From assembly GCA_021157445.1 (NCBI GenBank), contig JAGGWM010000205.1, positions 1 to 15,662 on the forward strand: a stretch of 15,662 bases of DNA, given 5' to 3'. Positions 1 to 14,367 of the stretch are shown here, one piece after another. The position numbers and the translations under genes are program-made. The notes below the pieces were generated by a model. That model was not told the origin of the DNA. It did not search any database and was given only the letters and a program-made list of their open reading frames with translations. How positions within the stretch are numbered: position 1 is the first letter of the stretch; every line of letters begins with the position of its first letter. This DNA comes from Thermococcus sp. (GTDB lineage Archaea > Methanobacteriota_B > Thermococci > Thermococcales > Thermococcaceae).

Positions 1-331
1 GAATGTGTGAGTGTATCCTTTCAAGTTCCGCTATTATGGGTCTTATGTACTGAGCTCTTGGAGGTGCTTCAATGCCCAAAGCCTTTTCACTGCCAATAAC
101 GAATGCATAAGGATGAGATATTGAACATATCCCGCATATTCTTTCAGAGAGGTATAGGGTCTGTATCGCATTCCTTTTCATTCCCATGTACTCGATTCCT
201 CTGTGGGCAAAACCTCTCTTGACGTCAACCTTTACCACCTTTTCTCCCTCAACCTCCGCCTCCACTCTTATTGGCTCTTTTAAAGCTGGATGAATTGGGC
301 CAATAGGGACGTAGTAAGTTGTTTTAGCCAT
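1..331 (-). CDS. Group 4 [NiFe] hydrogenase large subunit (MbhL/NuoD-like) of second cluster, 3' truncated by window edge
   Basis: This is the N-terminal ~110 residues of a second catalytic large subunit; the rest lies beyond base 1. I translated it by hand from the ATG at 331-329, which is preceded by a GGGGTGA ribosome site and overlaps the end of the K gene by 8 nt. The start reads YYVPIGPIHPALKEP, and the first Ni-ligand motif ERICGICSISH carries Cys66 and Cys69. In a [NiFe] hydrogenase these two cysteines plus a C-terminal DPCxxC bind the Ni-Fe site; that second motif is outside the window, so catalytic competence is unproven. The sequence is clearly diverged from the complete MbhL at 7524-8816 (HRGIEYMGMKRNAIQ against LRGLEWVGMRRNYIQ). 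It could be a second MBH, or the core of a formate- or CO-linked group 4 hydrogenase. Confidence 0.93.
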   Translation of the reverse strand, partial: MAKTTYYVPIGPIHPALKEPIRVEAEVEGEKVVKVDVKRGFAHRGIEYMGMKRNAIQTLYLSERICGICSISHPYAFVIGSEKALGIEAPPRAQYIRPIIAELERIHSHI

Positions 332-884
332 TCTGCTCACCCCTTTGTTTCCTAATCTCCTTTACACTCTTATGGGTGTGTTTAATCATATCTTCAACTC
401 CATACTCATCTCTTCTCCATGGGTATTTCCCTTCAGGCCAGTCATCAGGTAAGAACAGGTGTCTCTTGTTCTTAAGTCCATCAAACTCAATGCCAAGCAT
501 TTCCCTGATTTCTCTTTCATTTGTCTCTGCGCCGATCATAAGATCCGTTATTGTAGGAAGAACGAGGTTGCTCTTCGGAAGGTCGAGCTTCATTACTATG
601 CTTACTTCACCCCATGGGTGGGAATGGAAGAGTCCGAAGGAGTATATCATCTTGATTACTTCACCAACGTCCTCCCCAGTTATAAAGTGTAGATGAGGAT
701 AGTCTATTTCAAACATTGCCTCGACAGCTTTTCTGAAGGCGTCTTTGTTAATCTCCATCCAGATTTCTTGGTAGGCTCTGGGCTTTTTGACTCCCATTTT
801 GTATTCCTTTATCTCATAGTTTAATATCGCATCCCCGAGCTTTTCTTTTAACCTTTCAAGGATCTCTTCAGCTGTTAGTGTCAT
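324..884 (-). CDS. MbhK/NuoC-like hydrogenase subunit (30-kDa type), second cluster
   Basis: 186 aa, the NuoC-type structural subunit that sits against the large subunit in the peripheral arm of group 4 hydrogenases; it binds no metal. The family signature is visible in the C-terminal half: TNEREIREMLGIEFDGL followed by RHLFLPDDWPEGKYPWRRDE. The start overlaps the J stop as ATGA (884-881). It is longer than the operon 1 paralogue (173 aa) and very different in its N-terminal half. An unusual segment rich in His and aromatic residues (HLHFITGED, FGLFHSHPWGE) lies at about residues 66-91. The C-terminal tail is basic and hydrophilic. Family assignment is firm; which group 4 subtype it belongs to is not. 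Confidence 0.93.
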   Translation of the reverse strand: MTLTAEEILERLKEKLGDAILNYEIKEYKMGVKKPRAYQEIWMEINKDAFRKAVEAMFEIDYPHLHFITGEDVGEVIKMIYSFGLFHSHPWGEVSIVMKLDLPKSNLVLPTITDLMIGAETNEREIREMLGIEFDGLKNKRHLFLPDDWPEGKYPWRRDEYGVEDMIKHTHKSVKEIRKQRGEQNG

Positions 885-1327
885 TTCTTCTTCCCCTCCA
901 GCTCTTTTTCAAGCTTCTCAATTTTGAGCCATGCCTTTACAATTCCATCTATTATTGCCTCTGGCCTTGGAGGACATCCGGGGACGTAGACATCCACGGG
1001 TATTATTTCGTCTATTGGCCCAACTATGTTGTAGGAGTCGTAAAAGACCCCACCTGTGGTTCCGCAGTTCCCTATTACAACAACAGCCTTTGGATCTGGC
1101 ATTTGCTCATAGATACGTCTAAGTTTGTCAGCAAAGTCCCTTGGAATGGCTCCTGTGACTAGAAGCACATCCGCATGTCTCGGAGAACCGACGAGTTTTA
1201 TTCCAAACCTTTCTGCATCGTATCTTGGGGTAAGGACGGCCACTATTTCAATATCACATCCGTTACATGAACCTCCTGAAGCATGAAAAACCCAAAGAGA
1301 GCGCTTAAAGGTAGTTAGTTTGCCCAT
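881..1327 (-). CDS. MbhJ/NuoB-like hydrogenase small subunit with one [4Fe-4S] cluster, second cluster
   Basis: 148 aa small subunit that carries the iron-sulfur cluster closest to the Ni-Fe site. The four expected ligand cysteines are present: Cys21 and Cys24 in SGGSCNGCDIE, Cys88 in VIGNCGTTGG, and Cys118 in VPGCPPRPEAI. I chose the ATG at 1327 (MGKLTTFKRS) because it follows a GGAGGGGTG ribosome site at suitable spacing just after the stop of gene I; a further in-frame ATG at 1342 would lie inside I. The middle loop (CGTTGGVFYDSYNIVGPIDE) differs from the operon 1 MbhJ (CPTGGSVFFESPFTNAPLDK). That is the region facing the partner subunits, which suggests a different branch of group 4 rather than a recent copy. 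Confidence 0.95.
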   Translation of the reverse strand: MGKLTTFKRSLWVFHASGGSCNGCDIEIVAVLTPRYDAERFGIKLVGSPRHADVLLVTGAIPRDFADKLRRIYEQMPDPKAVVVIGNCGTTGGVFYDSYNIVGPIDEIIPVDVYVPGCPPRPEAIIDGIVKAWLKIEKLEKELEGKKK

Positions 1328-1328
1328 A

Positions 1329-1670
1329 TTACACCCCTCCAATTAGGATAAAGGTTATTATAGCTCCAATTCCCAGGTACCATAAAATATAGTCCCTCAT
1401 GTCCCCGGTATGAATTGCTTGGAGCACTTTGTAGTATTCCTTCAAAGCCTCGATAAATCCCCAATAGATATCTCCAGCTTTTACCTGGACCTTTTCCTTT
1501 GTGGGTTCCGGATTACCACTCAAGTAGGGCTTTATCTGCTCAGTGTTCTTCTTATAGGATGGGTTGCCTCTGGAGTATATCAGATAGGCTATTATACCAA
1601 AGAGGACCAAGAATATCAGCCATAGGAGGGGATTCCAAAATCCTGAAGGAGTAGTTAATGTGAAGCTCAT
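1329..1670 (-). CDS. MbhI-like linker membrane subunit, second cluster
   Basis: 113 aa with two predicted membrane helices (about residues 10-30 and 92-112) flanking a charged, partly helical middle (residues 35-85). This matches the position and architecture of MbhI, which joins the antiporter-like H subunit to the hydrogenase module in MBH. The ATG overlaps the H stop as ATGA (1670-1667). Sequence similarity to the operon 1 copy is weak except near the end (GxITFILIGG against GALVIGG), so the call rests mainly on order, length and topology. A separate I gene argues against the MBX/MBS layout, where as I recall a second MrpD-like gene (H') occupies this position. Confidence 0.8.
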   Translation of the reverse strand: MSFTLTTPSGFWNPLLWLIFLVLFGIIAYLIYSRGNPSYKKNTEQIKPYLSGNPEPTKEKVQVKAGDIYWGFIEALKEYYKVLQAIHTGDMRDYILWYLGIGAIITFILIGGV

Positions 1671-3220
1671 GCCAGACCACCCCAGCTGTGGTATTGAGCA
1701 AAGTTAATTAACGCATCAACTGCCGGATAAACAAGCTTGTCAAGTACTAAGTTCGGGAAGAGACCGAAGAGTATACAAAGCGCTGCTAGGATTACCATTG
1801 CAATTATCATCGGCTTGGGAACCTCTCTCGTGTTCTCGAACTTCTCCAGTGGCGGACCGAGGAAAGCTGATGCAAATACCTTGACGAAGGAAGCCAAAGT
1901 TAAAACACTGGTAACCATGGCAAACACTGTAAGGAGAGGGTTAAGTCTGTATGATGTTTCATATATGAGAAGCTTGCTTGCAAATCCGTTAAACGGCGGT
2001 AAACCAGATATCGCAGCAGCCCCCACCATGAAGCTTATTGCTGTTATAGGCATCTTCCTAGCCAAACCCCCCATTTCATTAAGATTTCTCGTTCCCGTAA
2101 CGTAAAACAAAGCTCCAGCGGTCATTAAGAGTAAGCTTTTGTAGATGATGTGGTTTATTATGTGAAATACTCCCCCCGCCATAGCATCTCTTCCAAACTC
2201 CGCAAGCTTTGAAGGATCATGTAAAACCGTTAAACCAACCCCAACACCGAGAAGCATGTAGCCAGTCTGGGATATAGCATGATAACTCATCAATCTCTTG
2301 ACGTCCTTCTGCACCAAGGCCATTGTAACGCCTATGAACATTGTAAGCACTCCCAGGATGGACATAATCCAGCCTACTCTAGCGAGGTCTATTACAACGT
2401 TTGCAAATAGTGTGAAGCTTACTCTAAAGAGAGCATAAAGGCTTGCGTAAGTTGCTACCAGGAGAGGAGGGTTTATTCCTGCAGGGACTTCTGTATATGC
2501 ATCCGGCACCCAGTAGTGCATCGGCACAGCACCGCATTTCATTGCAAAGGAGGTGAAAAGCAATCCGAGTGCGATCATATCAACCATGTTAAAGGACACG
2601 TTCTTGGCTATGTATGCAAGGTTTAAGTTCCCATACTGTCCGTAGAGTATACCTACTGCAAAGAGCACCATTAAAGACGCCACTGAACTAACCATCAGAT
2701 ATTTAATTCCTGCTTCACTTGCCTCACCGCGGTAGTTTCTAAATCCCACCAATGCCGATCCCGCTATACCAGCTATTTCTAGGAAGACGAAGAGGTTAAA
2801 GAGATCTCCCGTAAGCACCATACCGAGAATTCCTACCTCAAGGAGCATTAACAGTGCATAGTACTTTTCCAGACCCGTTTCCCTCTCTACATGACTGTAG
2901 GAGTAGAGAGCCCCTATAAAGCTCATCAGCGTTGCAGATATTGCCATAAAGACACTCATGGCATCTACTTCAAACATGATTCTTATTGGAACAGAATAAC
3001 CAGATGGCAACACTAGGGTTGGCTTGTCTGCACCAAAGACATAGACCATTATTCCCCCAGTAACAACTTCCTTGGCAAGCAGGAGGGATAGCACCACGGT
3101 TATGCCGGTTATTATGATTGTCCATATTGAGACTTCCCTATAATGCTTCTTAAAGAGAGGTGCTGTAAATGCCCCAAATAGAGGAACGGCAATCATTAAA
3201 GCCGGTAGGTGCTCCATCAT
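1667..3220 (-). CDS. MbhH/MrpD-like antiporter subunit, second cluster
   Basis: 517 aa polytopic protein of the NuoL/M/N and MrpD family, about 14 membrane helices. Visible family features are the TM5 glutamate (Glu148 in FVFLEIAGIAGSAL), the TM7 lysine (Lys228 in FAMKCGAVPMHYW), histidines and lysine in VFHIINHIIYKSLLL, and the TM12 SK..IYE (Lys416) after GLPPFNGFA. It lacks the SAMLxGLVIKxG segment of the operon 1 copy: at that place it reads INPPLLVATYASLYALFR, with no lysine. The start is the first of two ATG codons behind GGAGGTTAAGGGG and overlaps the G stop as ATGA. By family knowledge this subunit moves ions when the redox arm turns over; the missing lysine may change that path (see findings). 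Confidence 0.96.
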   Translation of the reverse strand: MMEHLPALMIAVPLFGAFTAPLFKKHYREVSIWTIIITGITVVLSLLLAKEVVTGGIMVYVFGADKPTLVLPSGYSVPIRIMFEVDAMSVFMAISATLMSFIGALYSYSHVERETGLEKYYALLMLLEVGILGMVLTGDLFNLFVFLEIAGIAGSALVGFRNYRGEASEAGIKYLMVSSVASLMVLFAVGILYGQYGNLNLAYIAKNVSFNMVDMIALGLLFTSFAMKCGAVPMHYWVPDAYTEVPAGINPPLLVATYASLYALFRVSFTLFANVVIDLARVGWIMSILGVLTMFIGVTMALVQKDVKRLMSYHAISQTGYMLLGVGVGLTVLHDPSKLAEFGRDAMAGGVFHIINHIIYKSLLLMTAGALFYVTGTRNLNEMGGLARKMPITAISFMVGAAAISGLPPFNGFASKLLIYETSYRLNPLLTVFAMVTSVLTLASFVKVFASAFLGPPLEKFENTREVPKPMIIAMVILAALCILFGLFPNLVLDKLVYPAVDALINFAQYHSWGGLA

Positions 3221-3582
3221 CCCCTTAACCTCCTTATCTTTGTAACGTCGAGGGTTCCGTAGTGTTTGTAGATATTAACGGCAAAAGCCAACATTAGAGC
3301 AGATACAGCAACACCGATAACTATGCTCGTGAGAGTTAGTGCCTGTGGGGTTGGTAGAACCATTTTTCCCGCAGCTTCAGGAGGTGCTTGTGTGTAGATG
3401 GGGGCATAGCCTCCTTTTACATAGCCTAGCGCCACAATGAACATGTTCACCGCTCCTTCTAGAATTTCAACGCCAATTACGACCTTTATGAGATTACGCT
3501 TAAATCCAATTGTGTAAAAGCCAAGGGCGAGCAATACTGCAACTACGATAAACGGAAGGTTAACAAAGATGCTACCATTCAT
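3217..3582 (-). CDS. MbhG/MrpC (NuoK-like) membrane subunit, second cluster
   Basis: 121 aa, three membrane helices, equivalent to MrpC and NuoK. Motifs shared with the operon 1 copy are FKRNLIKVVIGVEIL in helix 1-2, TPQALTLTSIVIG in helix 3, and the terminal tail IYKHYGTLDVTKIRRLRG. Helix 2 carries the typical buried glutamate of this family (GVEILEGAVN). The ATG at 3582 follows GGAGGGAGAGAG and overlaps the end of F by 11 nt; F stops with TAG inside this gene's first codons. Part of the Mrp-like ion-translocating module of the second complex. Confidence 0.95.
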   Translation of the reverse strand: MNGSIFVNLPFIVVAVLLALGFYTIGFKRNLIKVVIGVEILEGAVNMFIVALGYVKGGYAPIYTQAPPEAAGKMVLPTPQALTLTSIVIGVAVSALMLAFAVNIYKHYGTLDVTKIRRLRG

Positions 3583-4039
3583 CTCTCTCCCTCCTTAGGA
3601 TAAGGAAGAATATCAGAACTATACTCGTAAGACCCGCCAATACTTTTGTTCCCACAAAGATGTTGAGGTATGAAAGCGTTCCACCAGTGTTGAGGTAGCC
3701 CGGATTAATCCCTTTGGGAGTTGGAGCCCCAAAAAGGAAGTCGCTGTTTGCAATCACGTTTTTCAAGAATGTATATCCCATAAGACCCAACGCACCAATG
3801 CCTAAGAATCCCAAGGCTCCGAGGCTTTCCAGCTGACTCAAAGGAACCTTATCAAAAAGTTCCTTGACTTTTTCTTTATTATTTGCCACTATCAGCAGAG
3901 CTAAGCCGCTTGCAAATACAGCTCCACCCTGAAATCCTCCCCCGGGTGTGAGGTGCCCATGCAAAATGATATATGATCCAAAGACCAATATCAGGGGCGC
4001 TAAAATTTTTGTTGTTGTTCTTATGATTGTGGTTGTCAT
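3572..4039 (-). CDS. MbhF/MrpB-like antiporter subunit, second cluster
   Basis: 155 aa, four membrane helices, MrpB family. The diagnostic loop [15 protein letters not shown] lies at residues 27-41 after the first helix. The ATG at 4039 overlaps the E stop as ATGA, and the gene ends in TAG inside the G start. The coding DNA for the [13 protein letters not shown] loop is identical over 41 nt to the operon 1 copy although the rest of the protein has diverged (see findings). In Mrp antiporters and MBH this subunit belongs to the part associated with sodium transport; that role is inferred from the family. Confidence 0.95.
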
Positions 4040-4311
4040 TTCTCCTTCCCTCCGTAGTGTCTTAGTGCCATTAGAACTCCAGAAACTGCAGTGAAAAGAA
4101 CCGTTGCTTCTCCAAGTGTATCGAAACCTCTGTAGTCAAATACAACACTAGTAACAACGTTGTTGGCTGAGGCTTCTTCTTGAGCATGCTCTATGAAGTA
4201 GGTGTCCATCTCGGCATGGGGAGGTTCTCCAAAAGGTCTCAAGCTTATAGCTGCAGCCAAGAGAAATATTATGAATGATAAGAATGCAAACAGCCCCAGT
4301 GCCCTCCTCAT
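4036..4311 (-). CDS. MbhE-like subunit (MrpA C-terminal domain type), second cluster
   Basis: 91 aa, two membrane helices separated by a polar loop. The second half carries the signature [20 protein letters not shown], shared with the C-terminal end of MrpA and with MbhE. The first helix is near residues 5-27. The ATG at 4311 overlaps the D stop as ATGA. It is eight residues shorter than the operon 1 MbhE; the difference lies in the loop between the two helices. Component of the Mrp-like module. Confidence 0.93.
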
Positions 4312-4571
4312 TCTATCACCTCCTCATCGGTGGTGTTCTTGATAGCAAGAAGATACATTGCCGTTGTCAATCCCGCTCCAACACCCGCTTCTGCTATAGC
4401 AACATCTGGTGCCTGAAGAACATAGAATTCCACGGAAAGAGCCAAGCTGAAGACCGCCATTGCTATTACTGCAGCAATTAAGTTCTTAAACCTGATAGCG
4501 GCTATTGAGCTTCCTATTAATGCAATTGCAATGAGGATTTGCAGAATCCAGAAGAAGTTTTCAAAGTTCAT
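4308..4571 (-). CDS. MbhD-like subunit (MrpA C-terminal/NuoJ-like), second cluster
   Basis: 87 aa, three membrane helices. The family motif [16 protein letters not shown] is at residues 52-67, as in the MrpA C-terminal part and MbhD. I chose the ATG at 4571 ([11 protein letters not shown]) because it follows a clear GGAGGGATACT ribosome site and gives a length matching the operon 1 copy (88 aa); the upstream in-frame ATG at 4589 would overlap C by 29 nt with no better site. The chosen start overlaps C by 11 nt. Component of the ion-translocating module. Confidence 0.93.
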
Positions 4572-4917
4572 AGTATCCCTCCAGTTCATCTATTACAGCC
4601 CCATAAGGTCTTATTCCCGACTTTCTAGCTGCCCTACCAATTGCATGGGCTCCAACTGGGTTTGTTAGCACTAAAAATATCACTACAAGTGCCGAGTGGA
4701 TTCCTATTGTGATCCATCTTGCATCATGGTTTGGAAGCCATCTGTAAATCGAGTACACCACGGTTGCCAAGACTATGAAAATCGTCCCAAAGGTTGTGCA
4801 TTTTGTTGAAGCATGGATTCTTGTATAGACATCTGGGAACCTAAGGATTCCAATGCTGGCCAGTAAATTGAACCCAACTCCAATTGCAAGAAGTATCGCC
4901 AAAAGTGCCTCTATCAT
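4561..4917 (-). CDS. MbhC/MrpG-like antiporter subunit, second cluster
   Basis: 118 aa, three membrane helices, MrpG family. The diagnostic stretches are LRFPDVYTRIHASTKCTTFG after helix 1 and LTNPVGAHAIGRAARKSGI before the C-terminal tail. It starts with ATG at 4917, overlapping the B stop as ATGA; the operon 1 copy uses GTG instead. Small Mrp-module subunit, required in Mrp antiporters for assembly and activity of the complex. Confidence 0.95.
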   Translation of the reverse strand: MIEALLAILLAIGVGFNLLASIGILRFPDVYTRIHASTKCTTFGTIFIVLATVVYSIYRWLPNHDARWITIGIHSALVVIFLVLTNPVGAHAIGRAARKSGIRPYGAVIDELEGYYEL

Positions 4918-5189
4918 GCCAATCCCACCCTTTTCTTTACTAAATACCTCGCTATATACAGAGTTGCAATATAGCTAAGAACTGCATAAACAAGCGCAAC
5001 ATCGATAATCACAGCTTGCTCTGTAATCACTCCGTACAAAACCATGGCACCAGCAGTCGTGGTTGTTAAAGCATCCAATGCTACAACCCTGTCGGGAATC
5101 GTTGGACCGATTAGCATTCTCATCATTGTTAACGTAGCTGAAAGGAAAAGCAATATCATCGCTCCCATGAACAAACTTTCAGGCGTCAT
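4914..5189 (-). CDS. MbhB/MrpF-like antiporter subunit, second cluster
   Basis: 91 aa, three membrane helices, MrpF family, with the motif LIGPTIPDRVVALDALTT between helices 1 and 2. I took the ATG at 5189 (MTPESLF) because it forms an ATGA overlap with the A stop and lies behind AAGGAGGA; the longer frame from 5228 would add residues that merely read through the end of A. The same arrangement is seen in operon 1. Part of the Mrp-like module. Confidence 0.94.
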   Translation of the reverse strand: MTPESLFMGAMILLFLSATLTMMRMLIGPTIPDRVVALDALTTTTAGAMVLYGVITEQAVIIDVALVYAVLSYIATLYIARYLVKKRVGLA

Positions 5190-5689
5190 TCCGCAATCCT
5201 CCTTGCCCATTTTGGTAGATATCCACAAAGTTCTTCAGGGGTTGGCTTTTCTTTTCCTGGCGGAACGTTAATCCAATGGACGTATAAGTTCCCTTCATCA
5301 TCGATTTCAAGCGTAAACGTTCCCGGGGTGAGGGTTATTGAATTTGCAAGAAGGGTTCTGCTTTCATCTCTCGTTAATCCGGGAGATATTTTCACTATAC
5401 CCGGCCTTATTTTTCCAGTAATCACCCTATAAGCAACGTCTAAATTTGCCTTTGCCATGGCGTAAAAGAACGGCCCCACCGCATAAATCAGGAAAAGTAC
5501 CCACCTTTTTGGATTGAAAAAGTAATCAAGCCGTTCGTCCATTATGTTTCTCGTTGCATATCCTATGAGAGCCGCTATTACAATGCCAGCCACTAGCTCT
5601 GCTGGACTCCATAGTAAAACACTGCCAGAACCTGCGGTTAAGATCAGATACACAATCAACGACCACAGGAAAGATGTTGTAAGGGACAT
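5186..5689 (-). CDS. MbhA/MrpE-like antiporter subunit, first gene of second cluster
   Basis: 167 aa, MrpE family. Membrane helices fill residues 1-75, followed by a soluble tail. Family motifs: GPFFYAMAKANLDVAYRV, TGKIRPGIVKI and NSITLTPGTFTLEIDD, ending YVHWINVPPG. The ATG at 5689 is preceded by GAGGTGGGAGA, the same ribosome site and spacing as mbhA in operon 1. It is the first gene after a 282-bp spacer and so should be the promoter-proximal gene of the second transcription unit. A 29-nt stretch encoding ANLDVAY is identical to the operon 1 gene (see findings). Confidence 0.96.
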   Translation of the reverse strand: MSLTTSFLWSLIVYLILTAGSGSVLLWSPAELVAGIVIAALIGYATRNIMDERLDYFFNPKRWVLFLIYAVGPFFYAMAKANLDVAYRVITGKIRPGIVKISPGLTRDESRTLLANSITLTPGTFTLEIDDEGNLYVHWINVPPGKEKPTPEELCGYLPKWARRIAE

Positions 5690-5700
5690 TCTCCCACCTC

Positions 5701-5717
5701 AACTTTAAGTTTTAAAC
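5701..5717 (-). promoter_or_regulatory. SurR-type operator in the leader of the second cluster
   Basis: Read on the minus strand the 17 bases are GTTTAAAACTTAAAGTT, an exact match to GTTn3AACn5GTT, the extended motif of the sulfur-responsive regulator SurR in Thermococcales. It directly abuts the ribosome site of the A gene and lies downstream of the predicted transcription start, a position that favours repression. The match is seen; SurR binding is inferred. Confidence 0.6.
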
Positions 5718-5767
5718 CGTTTAAGAGCATATTTCAAACTATCTCATTATTAGCTTGTCTAAAATCC

Positions 5768-5784
5768 ATTAAATACATTTCTTT
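5768..5784 (-). promoter_or_regulatory. Predicted TATA/BRE promoter of second cluster
   Basis: On the minus strand the sequence AAAGAAATG-TATTTAAT gives a purine-rich BRE-like element followed by a TATA-like box at 5775-5768. The expected start of transcription, about 25 nt further, would be near 5745, leaving a leader of some 57 nt before the ATG at 5689. The box is not a perfect consensus. Confidence 0.5.
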
Positions 5785-5801
5785 AACAAAAGGTTAAAAA
5801 C
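5785..5801 (-). promoter_or_regulatory. SurR-type operator upstream of second cluster promoter
   Basis: On the minus strand the bases read GTTTTTAACCTTTTGTT, exactly GTTn3AACn5GTT. It lies about 10 bp upstream of the predicted TATA box, the position from which SurR activates hydrogenase operons in Pyrococcus. The same motif lies at the same relative place upstream of operon 1 (14351-14367). Confidence 0.65.
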
Positions 5802-5971: not shown

Positions 5972-6541
5972 TCATTCTTCGTATTCTTCTATTGCACCAA
6001 AGCGACATACTGTTGCACATATTCCACATCCGACACACTTGCTGGGATCAATTTTATGCACTTTTCCGGGCGATCCTTCAATGGCATTCTGCGGGCAGTT
6101 TCTGGCACACAGCGTGCATCCCTTACACTTGTCTGCAATTATGCGGTATTTCTTTGTTTTCCCTCCTTGCTTTGTGAGCATTTCTTCAATTTCTTCATTT
6201 TTGAGCCATCTGAGGTTGTCATCGTATTTATCATAAGTAGCCAAAAGAAATTCATTGCTCATCTCCAATGCATTTACCGGACAGACATCAACACACTGCT
6301 GGCAAAAGACACATCTTCCAAGCCAAAGGGTCACCTTTTTAAGCTCCGGCACGTATTCAAACACTCCTGCCGGACAGACGGTAATACAGAGCCTACAGCC
6401 TATGCACTTGTCCACATGGTAGATCAACTTTCCCCTAAATCCTTCTGGGGTTGGAACCGGGTCACTCTGAGGGAAAGGGTTTGTTGCCGGCTTCTTGAAG
6501 AGGTTACCTAGAACTACAGAGAGAGTTGGAGGAAGCTTCAT
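5972..6541 (-). CDS. mbhN: MbhN-like iron-sulfur subunit with an extra C-terminal 2[4Fe-4S] domain
   Basis: 189 aa electron-entry subunit of the hydrogenase. The N-terminal part (residues 1-115) matches ordinary MbhN: LFKKPATNPFP, then two CxxCxxCxxxC motifs with cysteines 46/49/52/56 and 77/80/83/87, then NEFLLATYDKYDD. A linker and a second ferredoxin domain follow (about residues 131-189, bases 6151-5975), with motifs CKGCTLCARNC (139-149) and CVGCGICATVC (169-179). That makes sixteen ligand cysteines, enough for four [4Fe-4S] clusters. As I recall, P. furiosus MbhN is about 140 aa with only the first two. The added domain resembles the C-terminal ferredoxin domain of NuoF/HndC-type flavoproteins. 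ATG overlaps the M stop as ATGA. It is the last gene of operon 1. Confidence 0.95.
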   Translation of the reverse strand: MKLPPTLSVVLGNLFKKPATNPFPQSDPVPTPEGFRGKLIYHVDKCIGCRLCITVCPAGVFEYVPELKKVTLWLGRCVFCQQCVDVCPVNALEMSNEFLLATYDKYDDNLRWLKNEEIEEMLTKQGGKTKKYRIIADKCKGCTLCARNCPQNAIEGSPGKVHKIDPSKCVGCGICATVCRFGAIEEYEE

Positions 6542-7527
6542 GCAATCACCCCCAGAACGTCTATGACCAATAACACAACTCCTATCAGGCTCATTGGAAG
6601 AATCCTACTCCAAAACATGCTGACTGCCTGTGTAATCCTGAGTCTTCCGGTTATAGCCCTAAATATGCTCATACTCACAAAAAGCACTGCAAAGGCTTTA
6701 AGCGTGTGGAAGACTAAATCAAGGATTACTGCCCCCACGCCACTTAAACCAAGGTACCCACTTACGCCCCATGGGAAAAAGATTGCCACAACCAAACTGG
6801 CACTTGCGAATTCTTTTAATGCACTGCTTAGCTTAAATAGTGCTAAATGTCTTCCACTGTATTCTGCCATGGGACCTTCCGCGACTTCTGTTTCTGCCTC
6901 GGGAATGTTGAAGTAACCAACCTCAATCTCGCTTGCAAGCCAAAGCAGGAACACCATAAGAAGGACAAACGTACCAACGATTGTCAAAGGAGTTCCAATT
7001 TCCCAAATGTTATACTGATAAAACGTTCCCACGCTGAAAGGTTTTTCAACTCCAAGTTTGCTCAAACGCCAGAGTATTGTAAAGAGTCCCAACATCATGG
7101 GAACCTCTCTGGAAGCGAGCATGATAATCTCTCTCTGAGCTCCTATTTGGGCATATGGAGAGCCTGAGCTAACGGCACCAATTACTCTTACAAATGCTAT
7201 AAGGGTAAGCAGGTAAATGAAAACTATCACGTCTCCCTTTGTGGCCAAGATTGGTTCAAATCCAAGAGGGGTGTAAGCTAAGAGAGCTATTGAAGCTGCC
7301 AATGCCAATATTGGAGCGATTTCAAAGAATTTATTAGCATCCCTCGGGATTATTGACTCTTTACTGACTAGCTTTAGGAAATCATAGAAGGGCTGGAGTA
7401 TTGGAGGACCCATTCTTCTTTGCATTCTTGCAACAAGCTTTCTATCCAGTCCCTCCCAAAGGAGAGAAGCGAATGAAACGTAAAGATAAATCGCTATTAA
7501 CCCCACAGTCACGTAAAGGATTTTCAT
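6538..7527 (-). CDS. mbhM: MbhM/NuoH-like membrane subunit anchoring the hydrogenase arm
   Basis: 329 aa, about eight membrane helices, homologous to NuoH of complex I. Visible family motifs: LVARMQRRMGPPILQPFYDF followed by KLVSKESIIP on the inner-side loop, and the charged loop YFNIPEAETEVAEGPMAEYS with GRHLALFKLSSALKEF. In NuoH this acidic loop forms part of the path between the redox arm and the membrane. The ATG overlaps the L stop as ATGA, and the gene stop overlaps the N start in the same way. It links MbhL/J to the ion-translocating membrane arm. Confidence 0.96.
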   Translation of the reverse strand: MKILYVTVGLIAIYLYVSFASLLWEGLDRKLVARMQRRMGPPILQPFYDFLKLVSKESIIPRDANKFFEIAPILALAASIALLAYTPLGFEPILATKGDVIVFIYLLTLIAFVRVIGAVSSGSPYAQIGAQREIIMLASREVPMMLGLFTILWRLSKLGVEKPFSVGTFYQYNIWEIGTPLTIVGTFVLLMVFLLWLASEIEVGYFNIPEAETEVAEGPMAEYSGRHLALFKLSSALKEFASASLVVAIFFPWGVSGYLGLSGVGAVILDLVFHTLKAFAVLFVSMSIFRAITGRLRITQAVSMFWSRILPMSLIGVVLLVIDVLGVIA

Positions 7528-8818: not shown

Positions 8819-9340
8819 TTAACCCTCCTTTTTCATTTTGTAAGGATGGCCTGCGTTCTTTATCATCGCACTGCTGATACCTTTCTCATCTTTCCTCAGA
8901 GGATAAACGCCCTCTGGAAAGTCTTCTGGTAAAAACAGCTTCCTTGGATCCGGTATTCCCTCAAAGAATAATCCCAGAAACTCCTGAACTTCCCTCTCAT
9001 AGGGAAGTGCACTTAGAAACACATCCGCGACAGTCGGAAGTTTTGGATCGTCTTTAGGACATTTAGTCCCAACTATAAGCGATATACTTGGGGCATGATC
9101 GTAGAATAATTCAAGATGGTACTTAGCTTCCAAGTAGTCCCCTCCATCCCTGGCTATTATTATGGAAAACTGCGCTTTTGGATCAATCTCCTTGATAAAC
9201 TTCATAATTTCTTTGAACTCCTCCCTATCTACATTTATCCAAACTCTCTTTCTCGGATGAGGAAGTTTGTTCTCGCGAATTTCTCCCTCAACACCGGGGA
9301 ATTTTTTCACGATAATATCCAAAAATTCTTCAGGGGTCAT
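8819..9340 (-). CDS. mbhK: MbhK/NuoC-like hydrogenase subunit
   Basis: 173 aa, NuoC-type subunit of the peripheral arm, with no metal ligands. Family signature: PYEREVQEFLGLFFEGIPDP, then RKLFLPEDFPEGVYPLRKDE. The length is what I expect for MbhK. The ATG overlaps the J stop as ATGA (9340-9337). It supports MbhL structurally. Only the C-terminal half aligns convincingly with the K gene at 324-884. Confidence 0.95.
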   Translation of the reverse strand: MTPEEFLDIIVKKFPGVEGEIRENKLPHPRKRVWINVDREEFKEIMKFIKEIDPKAQFSIIIARDGGDYLEAKYHLELFYDHAPSISLIVGTKCPKDDPKLPTVADVFLSALPYEREVQEFLGLFFEGIPDPRKLFLPEDFPEGVYPLRKDEKGISSAMIKNAGHPYKMKKEG

Positions 9341-9807
9341 TCCTTCTCACCTTCTATCTTTTTTATGAGCCTTTCTAACCCCAAGACCACTCCGTGGAGT
9401 ATTGCCTCTGGCCTGGGGGGACATCCCGGAACAAAAACATCCACCGGGATGTGCTTGTCTAGGGGAGCATTTGTGAAAGGACTCTCAAAGAACACGCTGC
9501 CACCGGTTGGGCATGCTCCTACGGCAACAACCACCTTTGGATCTGGAGTCTGCTCATAGATCAATTTAACCCTTTCAAGGCTTTGGTCTGTAATCGGCCC
9601 GGTTACCAACAAGATATCGGCATGCCTAGGAGTCCCAACAAGCTTCACTCCAAATCTCTCCGCATCGTATCTAGGGGTTAGAGCGGCTATTATTTCAATA
9701 TCGCATCCATTGCATGATCCGCTGTTAACGTGAAATACCCAAGGTGATCTTCCAAGATACTTGCAGAGCGTTGAAATTTTTTTCTCAAGCGTTTCTCTCT
9801 CACTCAT
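9337..9807 (-). CDS. mbhJ: MbhJ/NuoB-like hydrogenase small subunit with one [4Fe-4S] cluster
   Basis: 156 aa small subunit holding the cluster proximal to the Ni-Fe site. Ligand cysteines are Cys32 and Cys35 in SGSCNGCDIE, Cys99 in AVGACPTGG, and Cys129 in VPGCPPRPEAI. The ATG at 9807 (MSERETLEKK) follows GGGGGGTGAAACA and comes just after the stop of I; the upstream in-frame ATG at 9837 would read the end of I in another frame. It passes electrons from MbhN to MbhL. Confidence 0.95.
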   Translation of the reverse strand: MSERETLEKKISTLCKYLGRSPWVFHVNSGSCNGCDIEIIAALTPRYDAERFGVKLVGTPRHADILLVTGPITDQSLERVKLIYEQTPDPKVVVAVGACPTGGSVFFESPFTNAPLDKHIPVDVFVPGCPPRPEAILHGVVLGLERLIKKIEGEKE

Positions 9808-9811
9808 TGTT

Positions 9812-10159
9812 TCACCCCCCAATAACCAGCGCTCCAAGCACTATCGCTATAGTAATCAAAAGATATGCAACATAATCTGTAAGCAAACCAGTGTGTTCTC
9901 TTCTAAATACTAAAAACATTCTGTGGACTCCTCTTATCAGACCCCACATTACATGTCTGCCAGTGAAGTATCCACTAAGATGCTCAAAGTGAGGAATAAC
10001 TTTATCCTGATCCTCACCGCTGATATAAATCTTTGTTCCATCCCCCGTTCTCCTAGTGCCCATGCTAACTTTTTCTGCCCATTTCATGAGCAAGTAGCTA
10101 ATTATCAGACCAATAAGGAAAGCATAAAGGAAGTAGAGGGCATCCCAATAACCGAACAT
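9812..10159 (-). CDS. mbhI: MbhI linker membrane subunit
   Basis: 115 aa with a membrane helix at each end (about residues 4-26 and 93-113) and a charged, arginine-rich middle containing SGYFTGRHVMWGLIRGVHRM. By position between H and J it is MbhI, which in MBH bridges the antiporter-like H subunit and the hydrogenase module. I chose the ATG at 10159, behind GGGGGTG and one base after the H stop; a GTG at 10168 is an alternative adding three residues. Outside Thermococcales-type MBH this gene has no clear Mrp or complex I counterpart. Confidence 0.88.
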   Translation of the reverse strand: MFGYWDALYFLYAFLIGLIISYLLMKWAEKVSMGTRRTGDGTKIYISGEDQDKVIPHFEHLSGYFTGRHVMWGLIRGVHRMFLVFRREHTGLLTDYVAYLLITIAIVLGALVIGG

Positions 10160-10160
10160 C

Positions 10161-11744
10161 TCATGCACCCCCGATGAATTTTAAAAGGGCCATTATGTAC
10201 TCCCCATTTAGCTGTTCAAGCATTCTTGCTGTTGGCACCATTATTTTGTCGCTTATCTGCCATGGAAGGAGCCCCATCACAATTATTACTGCTACCAGGA
10301 TCAACATTGGAATTATCATGCTTTTTTCTGGCTCTTTTGCTTCTTTTATCATATCACTCTCTCTGCCCAGGAAGGTAAAGAGCACTCTGGTGTAGGCGGC
10401 AAGAGAGAACACCGTACCAACAACGGCAATAGCCGCTAGGACTGGATTGTACATGGCAGAGCTTTCGTAAATGATCCACTTGCTTGCAAACCCGTTCAAT
10501 GGTGGGAGACCAATTATTGCAGCCGCCCCAATTACAAAGGAGAATGTTGTTAACGGCATTTTCTTTGCCAGCCCGCTCAACTCATTGAGATTCTTTGTTC
10601 CCACCTGATGAATAACAGCACCAGCCACAAGGAAAAGCAGGGCTTTTATTAACGCGTGGTTTACTATGTGGTATATTGCCCCAGCCAGCGCTAATTCTCC
10701 TGCTTTAGTGCCATATGCTAAAGTTCCAATTCCGATTCCAAGCAGAATATATCCTATCTGCCCCACACTTGAGAAGGCAAAAAGCCTCTTCATATCGGTC
10801 TGCACTACTGCCATGGCATTTCCCACAAGGAGCGTTAAACAAGCAAAGAACACTATAACCCAGCCTATCACATCCATATTGACTGCGGGAGCATTGAATG
10901 CCCTTAGATATGCATGTAATCCAGGATTGAAGATACCAAATACTATCCTTGCTACCGCGTAAACTCCACCGGCTTTAATTACCAGTCCAGAGAGCATTGC
11001 AGAAATTGAGCTTGGAGCCGCTGGGTGTGCATCGGCTAACCACATGTGGACCGGAACAGCGCCGCTCTTAAAGAGTAACCCACCGATGAAGAAAGCCAAA
11101 GCAATTTTTGCCACAAGCGTTGGATTTTCGGCTATTTTTATGGCGAGATAGCTCATTGTAAGCGTTCCATACTGACCATAAAGCAAGGCAATGCCTAAGA
11201 GAATGAAGGAACTTGCAAGTGAGCCAACGAACATGTATTTTATTCCTGCCTCAATTCCTTCCCATGTGTCGTTTCTGAAAGCAACTAAAGCGTAGCTTGC
11301 AATGCTCATTATTTCCAGGAATACATAGAAGTTGAAGATATCTCCAGTGATTACAATTCCCAACATTCCCAGTTCCAAAATAAGTATTAGGGTGTAGTAT
11401 TTCTCCAAGCCCGTGTCATGCTTCATGTATCCAAGAGAGTATATTACTGCCAGAAAGCCCACGAAAGCTATTGTTAAAGCCAAAAGTGCCCCAAATAAGT
11501 CCACTTCCCACACAATCCTAATTGGGAATTTCACTCCCTTACCGATTGGACTATCGCTTCCCAGCGTATAGAGAATGATCTCATTGGTCTTCCATACCGT
11601 ATAGAATATTTTAGCGGAAACTGCAAGTGTAGCTCCGCTAACGATGACTGCCCAGTACTCTTTGATTTTCTTCCCAAGTAGGCTAACTATTGGCATTGAA
11701 AATGCCCCAAATAACGGAATTATAATCAGAAACGGGAGCGTCAT
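10161..11744 (-). CDS. mbhH: MbhH/MrpD-like antiporter subunit
   Basis: 527 aa, about 14 membrane helices, NuoL/M/N-MrpD family. The key charged residues of the family are visible: Glu144 (YVFLEIMSIAS, TM5), Lys226 (LLFKSGAVPVHMW, TM7), Lys257 (SGLVIKAGGVY, TM8), the His/Lys cluster YHIVNHALIKALL, and Lys422 in ASKWIIYE (TM12). GLPPLNGFA precedes the last of these. The ATG overlaps the G stop as ATGA. It is the main ion-moving subunit next to the hydrogenase arm. Confidence 0.97.
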   Translation of the reverse strand: MTLPFLIIIPLFGAFSMPIVSLLGKKIKEYWAVIVSGATLAVSAKIFYTVWKTNEIILYTLGSDSPIGKGVKFPIRIVWEVDLFGALLALTIAFVGFLAVIYSLGYMKHDTGLEKYYTLILILELGMLGIVITGDIFNFYVFLEIMSIASYALVAFRNDTWEGIEAGIKYMFVGSLASSFILLGIALLYGQYGTLTMSYLAIKIAENPTLVAKIALAFFIGGLLFKSGAVPVHMWLADAHPAAPSSISAMLSGLVIKAGGVYAVARIVFGIFNPGLHAYLRAFNAPAVNMDVIGWVIVFFACLTLLVGNAMAVVQTDMKRLFAFSSVGQIGYILLGIGIGTLAYGTKAGELALAGAIYHIVNHALIKALLFLVAGAVIHQVGTKNLNELSGLAKKMPLTTFSFVIGAAAIIGLPPLNGFASKWIIYESSAMYNPVLAAIAVVGTVFSLAAYTRVLFTFLGRESDMIKEAKEPEKSMIIPMLILVAVIIVMGLLPWQISDKIMVPTARMLEQLNGEYIMALLKFIGGA

Positions 11745-12103
11745 CCTCTCAACCTCCTTAGCTTGTTAACGTCAAGTGTCCCGTAGTGTCTGTAAGCGTT
11801 TATTGTTAATGCCATCGCCAATGAAAGCACACAAACTCCGATGACTATGCTCGTGAGCACTAAAGCCTGTGGTATTGGTCCAACCATTGGAGTGCCCTTT
11901 AATGTTTCATAGCCGGTGTAAATTGGAGCCGTTGGTAGGATTCCGTTTTCTAGTCTGTATCCTAAGCTTATTAGCAGGAGGTGTATGCCTGCATCAATTA
12001 AATTGAGAGCCAAGATAAGCTTGATGAGGTTCCTCTTGTATAAGAACGCATAAATGCCCATGAAGACCATTAAAAATGCCGTGATAAACTGAAGGGGTAT
12101 CAC
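11741..12103 (-). CDS. mbhG: MbhG/MrpC (NuoK-like) membrane subunit
   Basis: 120 aa, three membrane helices, MrpC/NuoK family: YAFLYKRNLIKLILALNLID, GPIPQALVLTSIVIG, and the tail YRHYGTLDVNKLRRLRG. The frame is open upstream to 12253, but those residues overlap F and match nothing in the family. I start at GTG 12103 (GTG ATA CCC CTT), which overlaps the F stop as GTGA and lies behind AGGAGGTGGAGGAA. This gives almost the same length as the second-cluster copy (121 aa). Confidence 0.93.
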   Translation of the reverse strand: MIPLQFITAFLMVFMGIYAFLYKRNLIKLILALNLIDAGIHLLLISLGYRLENGILPTAPIYTGYETLKGTPMVGPIPQALVLTSIVIGVCVLSLAMALTINAYRHYGTLDVNKLRRLRG

Positions 12104-12546
12104 TTCCTCCACCTCCTGAAAAGGGCTATTGCAAACACAGCACTCATTAGCCCCGTGTAAACCTTCAGGCCTACAGCCAAGTTCATTATTGGAAGATATC
12201 CAGCCGATAGAAGCGTACCGGGCTTTCCGTTGAATATTGGGCCATTGTGCCATAGTGTGTTGTAGAAAAATGCCACGCTAAGACCAAGCATAGCAACCCC
12301 TAGAAAAACTAAGCCTCCTAATCCTTCAAGAGCTGAATAAAGGCTTTTATTTATTCTTTTTTTGGCCTCACCGACTCCAAATGCTATTATGAACAATACA
12401 CCAGCTCCAGCAATTGTCGCTCCACCCTGAAATCCTCCCCCGGGTGTGAGGTGCCCATGAGAAACCACATAAGCTCCAAAAATTCCAATGAGAGGTATAG
12501 TTGCTCTTGCCATTGTTTTAACTATAAGTCCCATGTCACTCTTCAT
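12100..12546 (-). CDS. mbhF: MbhF/MrpB-like antiporter subunit
   Basis: 148 aa, four membrane helices, MrpB family, with [20 protein letters not shown] near the N-terminus. The ATG at 12546 (MKSDMGLIV) follows GGAGGGAGGAAA and overlaps E by 11 nt; the internal ATG at 12534, one base after the E stop, is a possible alternative that would match the second-cluster length more closely. The stop overlaps the GTG start of G. The loop-coding DNA is identical to 3921-3961 over 41 nt. Confidence 0.93.
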   Translation of the reverse strand: MKSDMGLIVKTMARATIPLIGIFGAYVVSHGHLTPGGGFQGGATIAGAGVLFIIAFGVGEAKKRINKSLYSALEGLGGLVFLGVAMLGLSVAFFYNTLWHNGPIFNGKPGTLLSAGYLPIMNLAVGLKVYTGLMSAVFAIALFRRWRK

Positions 12547-12835
12547 TTTCCTCCCTCCATTTTCTAAGCAATGCAACCGCTCCCGCTATTGAGGTGAAGA
12601 GAACAGTGGCCTCTCCAAGGGTATCGTATCCTCTGTAATCAAAGACTATATCTGTAACGATGTTAGTTCCACCTGTTTCCTCAATGCCGTGATCGATATA
12701 ATATTGATCAGTATAGCGGTATTTTTGCCAGTCTTCTCCCCCTAGACCAAATTTCAAGCCATAATTTGGATTAGCGATTAACAGCAATATTCCCAATATG
12801 AAAAGCAACGATAATGCTCCAAAGGTCTTTCTCAT
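12536..12835 (-). CDS. mbhE: MbhE-like subunit (MrpA C-terminal domain type)
   Basis: 99 aa, helix near residues 5-22, a polar loop rich in Tyr/Asp (KYRYTDQYYIDHG), then the signature [20 protein letters not shown] leading into the second helix. This matches the MrpA C-terminus and MbhE. ATG overlaps the D stop as ATGA. In MBH, D and E together stand in for the C-terminal part of MrpA, which is split into separate genes here. Confidence 0.94.
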   Translation of the reverse strand: MRKTFGALSLLFILGILLLIANPNYGLKFGLGGEDWQKYRYTDQYYIDHGIEETGGTNIVTDIVFDYRGYDTLGEATVLFTSIAGAVALLRKWREENEE

Positions 12836-13098
12836 GGCCCCTCACGCTCCCATCTCTCGGTTTTTGAGATCCCATAAACTACAATAGCGGTGACAACACC
12901 TGCACCAACAGCCGCCTCTGCTATAGCGACGTCTGGAGCATGAAGCATATAAAACTCCAAACTGAGAAGAAGACTCATAGCCGCAGATGCCAAAGCCGCT
13001 GAAAGTAAATCCCTTGTAGTTATCATCCAGTACGAAGAAAGCAGGATTCCAACAAGCAATCCCACTTGGATAGCCATGTCAACGCTTAATACGTTCAT
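12832..13098 (-). CDS. mbhD: MbhD-like subunit (MrpA C-terminal/NuoJ-like)
   Basis: 88 aa, three membrane helices, with the motif [20 protein letters not shown] in the last helix region. The ATG at 13098 overlaps the C stop as ATGA. Small core subunit of the ion-translocating module, clearly paralogous to the gene at 4308-4571. Confidence 0.95.
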   Translation of the reverse strand: MNVLSVDMAIQVGLLVGILLSSYWMITTRDLLSAALASAAMSLLLSLEFYMLHAPDVAIAEAAVGAGVVTAIVVYGISKTERWEREGP

Positions 13099-13460
13099 GC
13101 TCTCTCACCTCTCAATTTTCTCTCGTAGGCATCAATAACGGCCTTTGCCGGTTTGTAACCACTTAAATGCGCAGCTTTAGCTATTGCATGGGCTCCAGTT
13201 GGATTTGTAAGCATTAGTGCTATTAAGGCAACCACGCTGTGGAGTGCCATCTGAAGATACTTTGGATCACCTGTTTCTCTTATCTGCCAAATTGCATGAA
13301 CAACTACAGCCAAAACAGCAAATATTGTCCCGAAAGTAGTGCACTTTGTGGCACCATGTAAGCGAGTATAAACATCAGGAAATCTGTGAAGCGAAAAGCT
13401 CCCTAGTAAGTTGAAAGTAATGCTAATTGCCAGAAAAACATAGATTATGCTCTCAATCAC
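13095..13460 (-). CDS. mbhC: MbhC/MrpG-like antiporter subunit
   Basis: 121 aa, three membrane helices, MrpG family: HRFPDVYTRLHGATKCTTFG and LTNPTGAHAIAKAAHLSGYK. The start codon is GTG (13460-13458), forming a GTGA overlap with the B stop; no ATG is nearby, and the encoded N-terminus IESIIYVFLAI aligns with the ATG-started second-cluster copy. A Mrp-module subunit. Confidence 0.94.
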   Translation of the reverse strand: MIESIIYVFLAISITFNLLGSFSLHRFPDVYTRLHGATKCTTFGTIFAVLAVVVHAIWQIRETGDPKYLQMALHSVVALIALMLTNPTGAHAIAKAAHLSGYKPAKAVIDAYERKLRGERA

Positions 13461-13720
13461 TCCAATCCCCCCTGAAGATATTTAGCAATTACCAAGGTTC
13501 CGATATAGCTTAGCAAAGCATATACTATGGCTATATCAATGTAGATTACCCTGTCATAAGCTGCACCCAGGAGGATCATTCCAGCCACTATGAGCGTGTT
13601 TAAGGTATCGACACCAACGACTCTATCGGGAACACTAGGACCAAGCATTATGCGAATCAATGTTATGAATGCCCCAAGCGCGATTGCAATCGCTCCATAA
13701 AAAAACCCAGTAAAAATCAT
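13457..13720 (-). CDS. mbhB: MbhB/MrpF-like antiporter subunit
   Basis: 87 aa, three membrane helices, MrpF family with LGPSVPDRVVGVDTLNT. I use the ATG at 13720 (MIFTGFFYG), which lies behind AAGGAGGTTGGGGAA and overlaps the A stop as ATGA; the ATG at 13741 would add seven residues encoded by the ribosome site region. Same arrangement as in the second cluster. Confidence 0.94.
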   Translation of the reverse strand: MIFTGFFYGAIAIALGAFITLIRIMLGPSVPDRVVGVDTLNTLIVAGMILLGAAYDRVIYIDIAIVYALLSYIGTLVIAKYLQGGLE

Positions 13721-14217
13721 TTCCCCAACCTCCTTGCCCATTTTTCAAAAGAACCGGCGACTGGTTCTGATGTTTTTGGCTCTTCTTCTTTTACATAAAT
13801 CCAATGGACGTAGAGGGCTTTTTCCTCTGGACAAGCGTCTACAGTTAAAGTTCCGGGAGTAAGTGTAATTGAGTTGCTTAATATCGTATATTGGGCTTCA
13901 TTTTCAAGATCAACAGGCACTCTAACAATTCCGGGTTTTATTTTTCCAGTAACCACTCTGTAAGCAACGTCTAAATTTGCCTTTGCCATTCCCCAGAAGA
14001 GGGGACCCACAGCATAAACAATAAAGCCGAGCCATTTTATTGGGTTTAGAAATCTCTGCGTTTTTTCTCCTATGATATTCCTTGTTGAAAATCCAACTAT
14101 TGTTGCAAATATAATTCCTGCTATCAGTTCCTCGAGGCTCCAGAGCATCCCATTTGTGCCTGCTGTAAGTACAAGCCAGAGCGCGAACGACCATATAAAT
14201 GCAACAATGAAACTCAT
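13717..14217 (-). CDS. mbhA: MbhA/MrpE-like antiporter subunit, first gene of MBH operon
   Basis: 166 aa, MrpE family: N-terminal membrane helices to about residue 75, then a soluble domain. Motifs: GPLFWGMAKANLDVAYRVV, TGKIKPGIVRV, and NSITLTPGTLTVDA, ending LYVHWIYVKEEE. The frame is open to 14289, but I place the start at the ATG at 14217 (MSFIVAFIW) because AGAGGTGGGAAAA precedes it and the second-cluster homologue begins the same way (MSLTTSFLW). Leader gene of operon 1. Confidence 0.95.
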   Translation of the reverse strand: MSFIVAFIWSFALWLVLTAGTNGMLWSLEELIAGIIFATIVGFSTRNIIGEKTQRFLNPIKWLGFIVYAVGPLFWGMAKANLDVAYRVVTGKIKPGIVRVPVDLENEAQYTILSNSITLTPGTLTVDACPEEKALYVHWIYVKEEEPKTSEPVAGSFEKWARRLGK

Positions 14218-14336
14218 TTTTCCCACCTCTAATCTTAGTTTAAAATCCGAATTCTCACCATTTTTTGCTTTTGCCGATGTTAATTTCAACAGTTTCTTTT
14301 AAAAGACTTTTGTAAAAGCCTAAATTAACAATAAAG

Positions 14337-14350: not shown

Positions 14351-14367
14351 GTTTTTAACCAAAGGTT
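14351..14367 (+). promoter_or_regulatory. SurR-type operator upstream of the MBH operon
   Basis: The plus strand reads GTTTTTAACCAAAGGTT, an exact GTTn3AACn5GTT match. It sits immediately upstream of the predicted TATA box of the MBH operon, the expected place for activation. In P. furiosus SurR activates the mbh operon in the absence of sulfur. The match is direct; the regulation is inferred from that species. Confidence 0.7.

Follow-up and report, generated by a model that had tools for sequence, protein, structure and literature searches.

A second 2[4Fe-4S] ferredoxin domain fused to the MbhN subunit in the MBH1 operon of some Thermococcaceae

The long mbhN gene and its operon

The window, which is the whole stretch of DNA analysed here (15,662 nucleotides of a Thermococcus sp.), comprises an entire contig of a genome that is 61% complete and carries two MBH gene sets on the minus strand (Table 1). 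Fourteen frames that follow the order mbhA-N make up the first set (14289-5972), with mbhN as the last; the genes A-H were called by Pfam matches over the cut-off, J-N by NCBIfam and the frame at the place of mbhI by its position and by its relatives. The second set, MBH2, is cut by the end of the contig; in G078, G002, G092 and G031 the same gene order continues with L, M and an N of the short form. In the window and in four relatives, neither the operon nor the stretch that separates the two operons contains a gene for a partner protein.

That the first operon corresponds to MBH1 is indicated by the spacing of the SurR-type motifs before the second operon, which matches the long SurR motifs at 11 and 96 bp of Mrp-Mbh2 from T. 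barophilus, as given in a table of PMC12162507. According to the accessible text of that study, T. barophilus expresses MBH1 more strongly than the other copy. In the window, three exact SurR-type motifs are present and ten motifs with at most one mismatch, compared to 3.25 expected. An exact motif is located also ahead of MBH1 (14351-14367, plus strand), a place for which the same part of PMC12162507 gives only altered motifs in T. barophilus. Adjacent MBH pairs as such are already described in PMC6981617 and PMC12162507 (excerpts), the organisms being Palaeococcus pacificus, Thermococcus sp. 4557, T. sibiricus and T. barophilus.

Table 1. Features of the window, positions counted from its first nucleotide
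Feature	Position	Strand	Remark
MBH2 genes A-K	324..5689	-	L, M, N past contig end
Two exact SurR-type motifs GTTn3AACn5GTT	5701..5801	-	11 and 95 bases before MBH2 start
mbhN of MBH1, long form	5972..6541	-	189 aa; PRK08348 above cut-off
Fused 2[4Fe-4S] ferredoxin domain, residues 131-189	5975..6151	-	domain match residues 131-185
CxxCxxCxxxC motif 4, C169, extra domain	6005..6037	-	in 21/21 long MbhNs
CxxCxxCxxxC motif 3, C139, extra domain	6095..6127	-	in 21/21 long MbhNs
Helix and linker, residues 113-130	6152..6205	-	block pLDDT 64-75; helix 115-124 in model
MbhN core, residues 1-112, two [4Fe-4S] sites	6206..6541	-	
CxxCxxCxxxC motif 2, C77	6281..6313	-	
CxxCxxCxxxC motif 1, C46	6374..6406	-	
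mbhM (NuoH-like)	6538..7527	-	NCBIfam
mbhL, NiFe large subunit, C69/C72 and C374/C377	7524..8816	-	
mbhK (NuoC-like)	8819..9340	-	
mbhJ (NuoB-like), cysteines fit one [4Fe-4S] cluster	9337..9837	-	true start may be ATG 9807
Frame at mbhI place, 118 aa, without Pfam match	9812..10168	-	
mbhH (Mrp antiporter/complex I membrane subunit)	10161..11744	-	PF00361
mbhA-G of MBH1, antiporter module with MbhD and MbhE	11741..14289	-	A probably starts 14217

The initial annotation of this DNA had described four CxxCxxCxxxC motifs in one frame of mbhN with first cysteines at 46, 77, 139 and 169, and exactly these positions are recovered in a single uninterrupted frame that ends with a TGA stop codon. The proposed match of the N-terminal part to normal MbhN equally holds, but reaches to about residue 124 and not 115, as residues 5-124 align without a gap to the 139 aa MbhN of P. 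furiosus (6cfw_N; E 1.3e-58), with 68% identity over the core in the structural alignment. The NCBIfam model PRK08348 covers residues 1-130 with 219 bits at a cut-off of 124. The last 60 residues, previously suggested to resemble the C-terminal ferredoxin domain of NuoF/HndC-type flavoproteins, indeed belong there, since residues 129-185 match HydB/NuoF-type C-terminal ferredoxin domains with 7p5h_B as the best match (E 3.6e-15; E 2.4e-16 with the extra domain alone as the query).

A C-terminal 2[4Fe-4S] domain of the HydB/NuoF/BfuB type is present in long MbhN by sequence and structural alignment, while Pfam detects Fe-S domains only on the 189 aa protein, the FMN/NADH-binding and SLBB parts of HydB/NuoF/BfuB being absent. 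In short MbhNs, a charged tail ends the protein where the long form has its helix and linker. At the level of sequence, the gene is confirmed to encode MbhN with a second 2[4Fe-4S] ferredoxin domain fused at the C-terminus, and judged by its motifs MBH1 would have five clusters (one in MbhJ and four in MbhN) rather than three.

Distribution and history of the extra domain

Among 94 surveyed Thermococcaceae genomes, an MBH1-type N is present in 91 (it was not found in G003, G049 and G093), 21 of which encode an MbhN with four complete motifs. The long form occurs in all 13 genomes of genus g1, to which the window's own genome belongs and in which it is counted, in all seven of g5 and in one of three of g2 (G002, with an N of 190 aa), and is absent from the 60 g4 genomes that carry the gene as well as from the nine g3 genomes. 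Outside of the Thermococcaceae, none of 21 genomes of the phylum has a match to the extra domain, with 115 genomes of the phylum searched overall. The N of MBH2 has two motifs only in all seven cases extracted (G002, G003, G031, G047, G078, G092 and G093), and the remaining MBH2-type matches are located in open frames of 120-166 aa. One genome, G093 (genus g6, 99% complete), has an MBH2-type N and both ferredoxin types, and no MBH1-type N was found in it.

In a protein search, only P0002-P0004 span the whole query at a level of at least 82% among the best 120 of 621 matches, with P0003 being a long N of 190 aa recorded for Palaeococcus pacificus. Long MbhN is not widespread among the characterised MBH enzymes, as the subunit has 139 aa in P. 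furiosus and 143 aa in G024, which presumably represents T. kodakarensis. Two metagenomic MbhN/NuoI-like proteins, P0055 (291 aa, six motifs) and P0059 (171 aa, four motifs), are distant and separate from long MbhN; with these motif numbers, a subunit of the MbhN/NuoI-type may have been lengthened more than once.

Purifying selection acts on the extra domain as it does on the core. For the last 60 codons, dN/dS lies between 0 and 0.09 in 11 of 12 close pairs (dS up to 1), compared to 0-0.08 for the core, and in the twelfth pair, G077/G082, dN/dS is undefined with zero change in the extra domain; in three distant pairs dS is saturated over part of the gene. The occurrence of the four-motif protein in 21 of 91 genomes, several of them single-contig, together with purifying selection excludes chance or an assembly error as the origin of the fusion.

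In the operon tree, calculated from L, M and the N core with the extra domain excluded, long MbhNs are found at three places. At the first place, G002 stands beside the short G047/G053/G064 with moderate support (95/73, 90/72); the second and third are held by g1 and by g5 beside a large short clade (g4 plus G001). A single clade of long MbhNs is rejected on this tree (AU p 0.0022). The cheapest history requires three changes, such as a single gain at the root of the MBH1 clade and two losses. As the fused domains are 83-97% identical to that of the window, one fusion with two later losses, or operon transfer, is preferred over repeated fusion, and the extra domain was probably lost twice. The MBH1 of G001, a genome of g2, groups with the g4 clade (100/100), which suggests transfer of the MBH1 operon into G001, and whole-operon transfer is possible more generally.

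A remnant of the domain downstream of N was not detected within the up to 1 kb searched at 91 loci of 90 genomes (20 long and 71 short, with G031 counted twice among the short and less than 1 kb present at eight of the 91 loci). Recent loss by frameshift in short genomes was rejected, the four matches obtained (E 5.8-9.0) being all short and chance-like.

With respect to the donor of the domain, the nearest sequences by identity are HydB-like fragments (70%; Christensenellaceae 69%), followed by Thermococcaceae BfuB (62%) and by sequences of about 647 aa that, on account of this length, are taken here to be IorA-like (57%). In a tree of 56 columns, the extra domain is placed beside the IorA-like sequences (98/93), and a joint clade with Thermococcaceae BfuB is not rejected (p 0.31).

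Electron entry and candidate donors

In P. furiosus, ferredoxin docks on MbhN and the electrons pass three clusters to NiFe according to the available text of PMC11228991, in agreement with the three-cluster chain from which the initial annotation had started. In the long form, soluble ferredoxin would dock on the extra domain of MbhN, with clusters 3 and 4 as the first acceptors of its electron, and the extra domain would relay the electron to the distal MbhN cluster, from where it would take the usual path N, N, J, [NiFe]. As a consequence of such a tethered ferredoxin module, the wire would grow from three to five clusters, with the docking site shifted outward, and in lineages with the extra domain the all-cysteine [4Fe-4S] ferredoxin may be the preferred donor. 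Cluster occupancy, electron path and docking partner are those that we infer for this scheme, in which the new clusters are predicted to extend the wire; that the tethered module is fed by soluble ferredoxin and extends the chain, possibly with a preference for the all-cysteine donor, is the reading to which the data incline, with rather more confidence than doubt.

The best relatives of the extra domain are the C-terminal domains of HydB/NfnB. In bifurcating enzymes, the C-terminal domain of HydB has been seen in two positions, and a ferredoxin exchange at its clusters is discussed in a scheme that the authors themselves call highly speculative (PMC9499530, excerpt), and entry of ferredoxin electrons via B4 and B3 is reported in the accessible part of PMC9304861. 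The net charge of the extra domain in the 21 sequences ranges from +6 to +9 if the five acidic residues at its end are left out and from +2 to +5 for the whole 60 residues, and the ferredoxins of the window genome have net charges of -10 and -11; the charge constitutes weak evidence not special to the extra domain, since short MbhN tails (median +3) and HydB-like fragments (median +4) are similarly basic. The model of long MbhN, built from an alignment without HydB fragments, has a pTM of 0.52 and leaves the orientation of the extra domain uncertain.

The extra domain could alternatively constitute a side branch or buffer that holds one or two electrons or makes the complex more stable, with ferredoxin docking on the MbhN core. 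The retention of MBH1 upon the loss of the domain, the low confidence of the linker in the model and a nearly unchanged core, in which long and short forms of the MBH1 clade differ in the majority residue at three positions, all conservative, are in line with such a role, but the conservation of both extra motifs, a dN/dS near that of the core and the discussion of homologous domains as ferredoxin-exchange sites speak against it and the alternative is considered unlikely. The probable double loss, by which the domain appears dispensable in some settings, counts also against the tethered ferredoxin module.

Another possibility, already raised in part in the initial annotation by naming formate dehydrogenase and a flavin-containing protein as partners, is a docking platform for formate dehydrogenase, CO dehydrogenase (CODH) or a NuoF/BfuB flavoprotein that acts without soluble ferredoxin. 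The domain type does occur at the C-terminus of BfuB/NuoF, and such a flavoprotein (PF10589) is encoded in 41 of the 94 genomes. However, none of the three candidates tracks the extension in its presence over the 94 genomes: NuoF/BfuB is found in 7/21 long versus 33/70 short genomes (and in one without N1), and CODH over the cut-off in 31/94 genomes (10/21 long, 20/70 short and one without N1), while formate dehydrogenase is matched in 94/94 genomes, long and short alike, with 85 over the cut-off. With no partner gene in the operon and the inter-operon gap of the window and four relatives, direct docking of one of these enzymes is regarded as highly improbable.

On the other hand, the remaining partner proposed at the outset, a different ferredoxin, gains support. 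Single-cluster ferredoxins of Thermococcaceae (PF13370) possess either aspartate (CIGDAIC) or cysteine (CIGCGVC) at the second ligand position, whereby the motif used for the count accepts CTG as well as CIG/CVG and also takes in a partial gene of G036. The all-cysteine ferredoxin is present in all 19 long-MbhN genomes that yielded a single-cluster ferredoxin, in eight alone and in 11 together with the aspartate form, versus two of 66 short-MbhN genomes with a ferredoxin found, the other 64 having the aspartate form only. A single-cluster ferredoxin was not found in two long (G083 and G084) and four short genomes. In the window's genome, both ferredoxins are encoded by genes located side by side (contig C161).

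The two short-MbhN genomes that deviate, G041 with both forms intact and G029 with the aspartate form and a frame-broken cysteine form, carry a different MBH1 clade, as judged for G041 by its outgroup position in the operon tree and for G029 from its N. Their all-cysteine ferredoxins beside the aspartate form have the sequence CTGC (G041:C2:145673-145831, L320, intact; G029:C1:430260-430370, L329, broken). Within the MBH1 clade of the long forms, the all-cysteine ferredoxin is present in 19/19 long and 0/23 short genomes (one further short genome has none found), and the contrast extends into genus g2, where G002 combines long MbhN with the cysteine form and G001 short MbhN with the aspartate form.

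The number of independent changes is small. From the species tree (EF-2 and RpoB of 30 genomes with G041 and G029 left out, and with a branch of 0.9 for G022, for which probably a wrong reading frame was chosen) and the operon tree, two supported independent contrasts are obtained, or three including weak branches. Upon pairing in the operon tree, both contrasts point in the same direction in 178/200 cases, and in 22/200 one points in the same direction and one is without difference. With a sign test p of 0.5, significance is out of reach, and the co-occurrence, with only two to three independent changes, is suggestive but not proof, which weakens also the ferredoxin preference of the tethered module.

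The pairing could also reflect shared ancestry, as two old features present in the same lineages without a functional link. This explanation concerns the ferredoxin pairing only and is compatible with the tethered ferredoxin module. It is consistent with the small number of changes and with the all-cysteine ferredoxin of the short-MbhN genomes G041 and G029, as well as of G093, in which no MBH1-type N was found; yet both traits change together in the MBH1 clade including within g2, and shared ancestry is given slightly less than an even chance. The stronger proposal that the MBH entry module and the ferredoxin of the cell have evolved as a matched pair, with five-cluster MBH1 matched to all-cysteine ferredoxin and the three-cluster form, in lineages that have returned to it, to the aspartate type only, is tentative and on the doubtful side. 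If true, the routing of electrons to hydrogen would depend on a docking domain that can be exchanged and is adapted to the donor's ligand type.

The ferredoxin loci themselves display some irregularities. At L306 (G091), the flanks of one ferredoxin are those of the aspartate form but its ligand position is a cysteine, and the ferredoxin at L308 (G088) resembles a chimera of both forms; the pattern suggests gene conversion between the neighbouring ferredoxin genes. In G089, a degenerate additional ferredoxin match with an internal stop (G089:C1:541085-541225, L318) is located near an intact all-cysteine copy.

Isoform-specific docking on MBH is plausible, as MBH of T. kodakarensis takes electrons from and depends on one ferredoxin isoform only, the separate Fd-3 (TK2012; 15.6 kDa, basic, nine cysteines), as stated in the accessible text of PMC6401487. 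This known donor, not being of the all-cysteine type, is an argument against the reading with the tethered module fed preferentially by such a ferredoxin. The dependence on Fd-3 would, moreover, fit a Rosetta-stone replacement, whereby the fused domain substitutes for Fd-3 and the ordinary ferredoxin pool feeds MBH1 directly. A protein with the features of Fd-3 (141 aa, nine Cys, pI 8.0) is encoded in G024 at L454:1363-1785 (minus strand), near the place expected from the gene numbers, and is likely Fd-3 (TK2012). A homologue search (55 proteins), though, recovered relatives in other archaea and in bacteria, for example Thermosipho and Desulfurobacterium, so that Fd-3 is not MBH-specific by its distribution, and the replacement is seen as distinctly unlikely.

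Among respiratory enzymes related to complex I, MBH is one of the simplest, and it has been described as a three-cluster machine. A natural MBH with five sites would allow a direct test of how rate, potential and ferredoxin choice depend on the length of the entry chain and on the docking site. The ferredoxin ligand (all-Cys versus Asp) and the entry subunit change largely together, which offers a handle on electron routing to H2, and the pairing bears also on the question why Thermococcales retain two ferredoxin ligand types.

Comparison with known systems

In the open-licence literature, as far as its accessible text extends, no description of a four-cluster MbhN or of a link to ferredoxin type was found. 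The tandem MBH1/MBH2 arrangement of Palaeococcus pacificus and T. barophilus is the equal of the pair in the window, with SurR distances before MBH2 near those of T. barophilus, which itself would be expected to have a long N. The accessible portions of the tandem-MBH papers (PMC6981617, PMC12162507) treat copy number and regulation and do not mention extra MbhN clusters. While tandem MBH has already been published, the conserved fusion in a clear set of lineages is a new form of the known MBH.

The extra domain equals the C-terminal domain of HydB/BfuB from the bifurcating hydrogenase and Nfn-ABC in fold and length, with 51% identity to 9bp5_B, but HydB/BfuB carry a flavin/NADH-binding part, whereas on MbhN the domain sits alone. 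Fd-3 of T. kodakarensis is a basic iron-sulfur protein reported to be a dedicated donor of MBH, but is a separate soluble protein with no covalent link. The homologous entry subunits NuoI of complex I and HycF of formate hydrogenlyase are two-cluster proteins and are not known to have an added ferredoxin domain like that of long MbhN.

The closest characterised relative, the MBH of P. furiosus (6CFW), is like the window in its antiporter genes and genes H-N, in the cysteines for one cluster in MbhJ and in the NiFe cysteines, which are C68, C71, C374 and C377 in P. furiosus (PMC11228991, excerpt) and C69/C72 and C374/C377 in MbhL of MBH1. It differs in MbhN, which in P. furiosus has two clusters and in the window the added 2[4Fe-4S] domain. 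To judge from these sequence features, MBH1 of the window is a variant of the three-cluster chain, the remaining features tested placing the enzyme in MBH.
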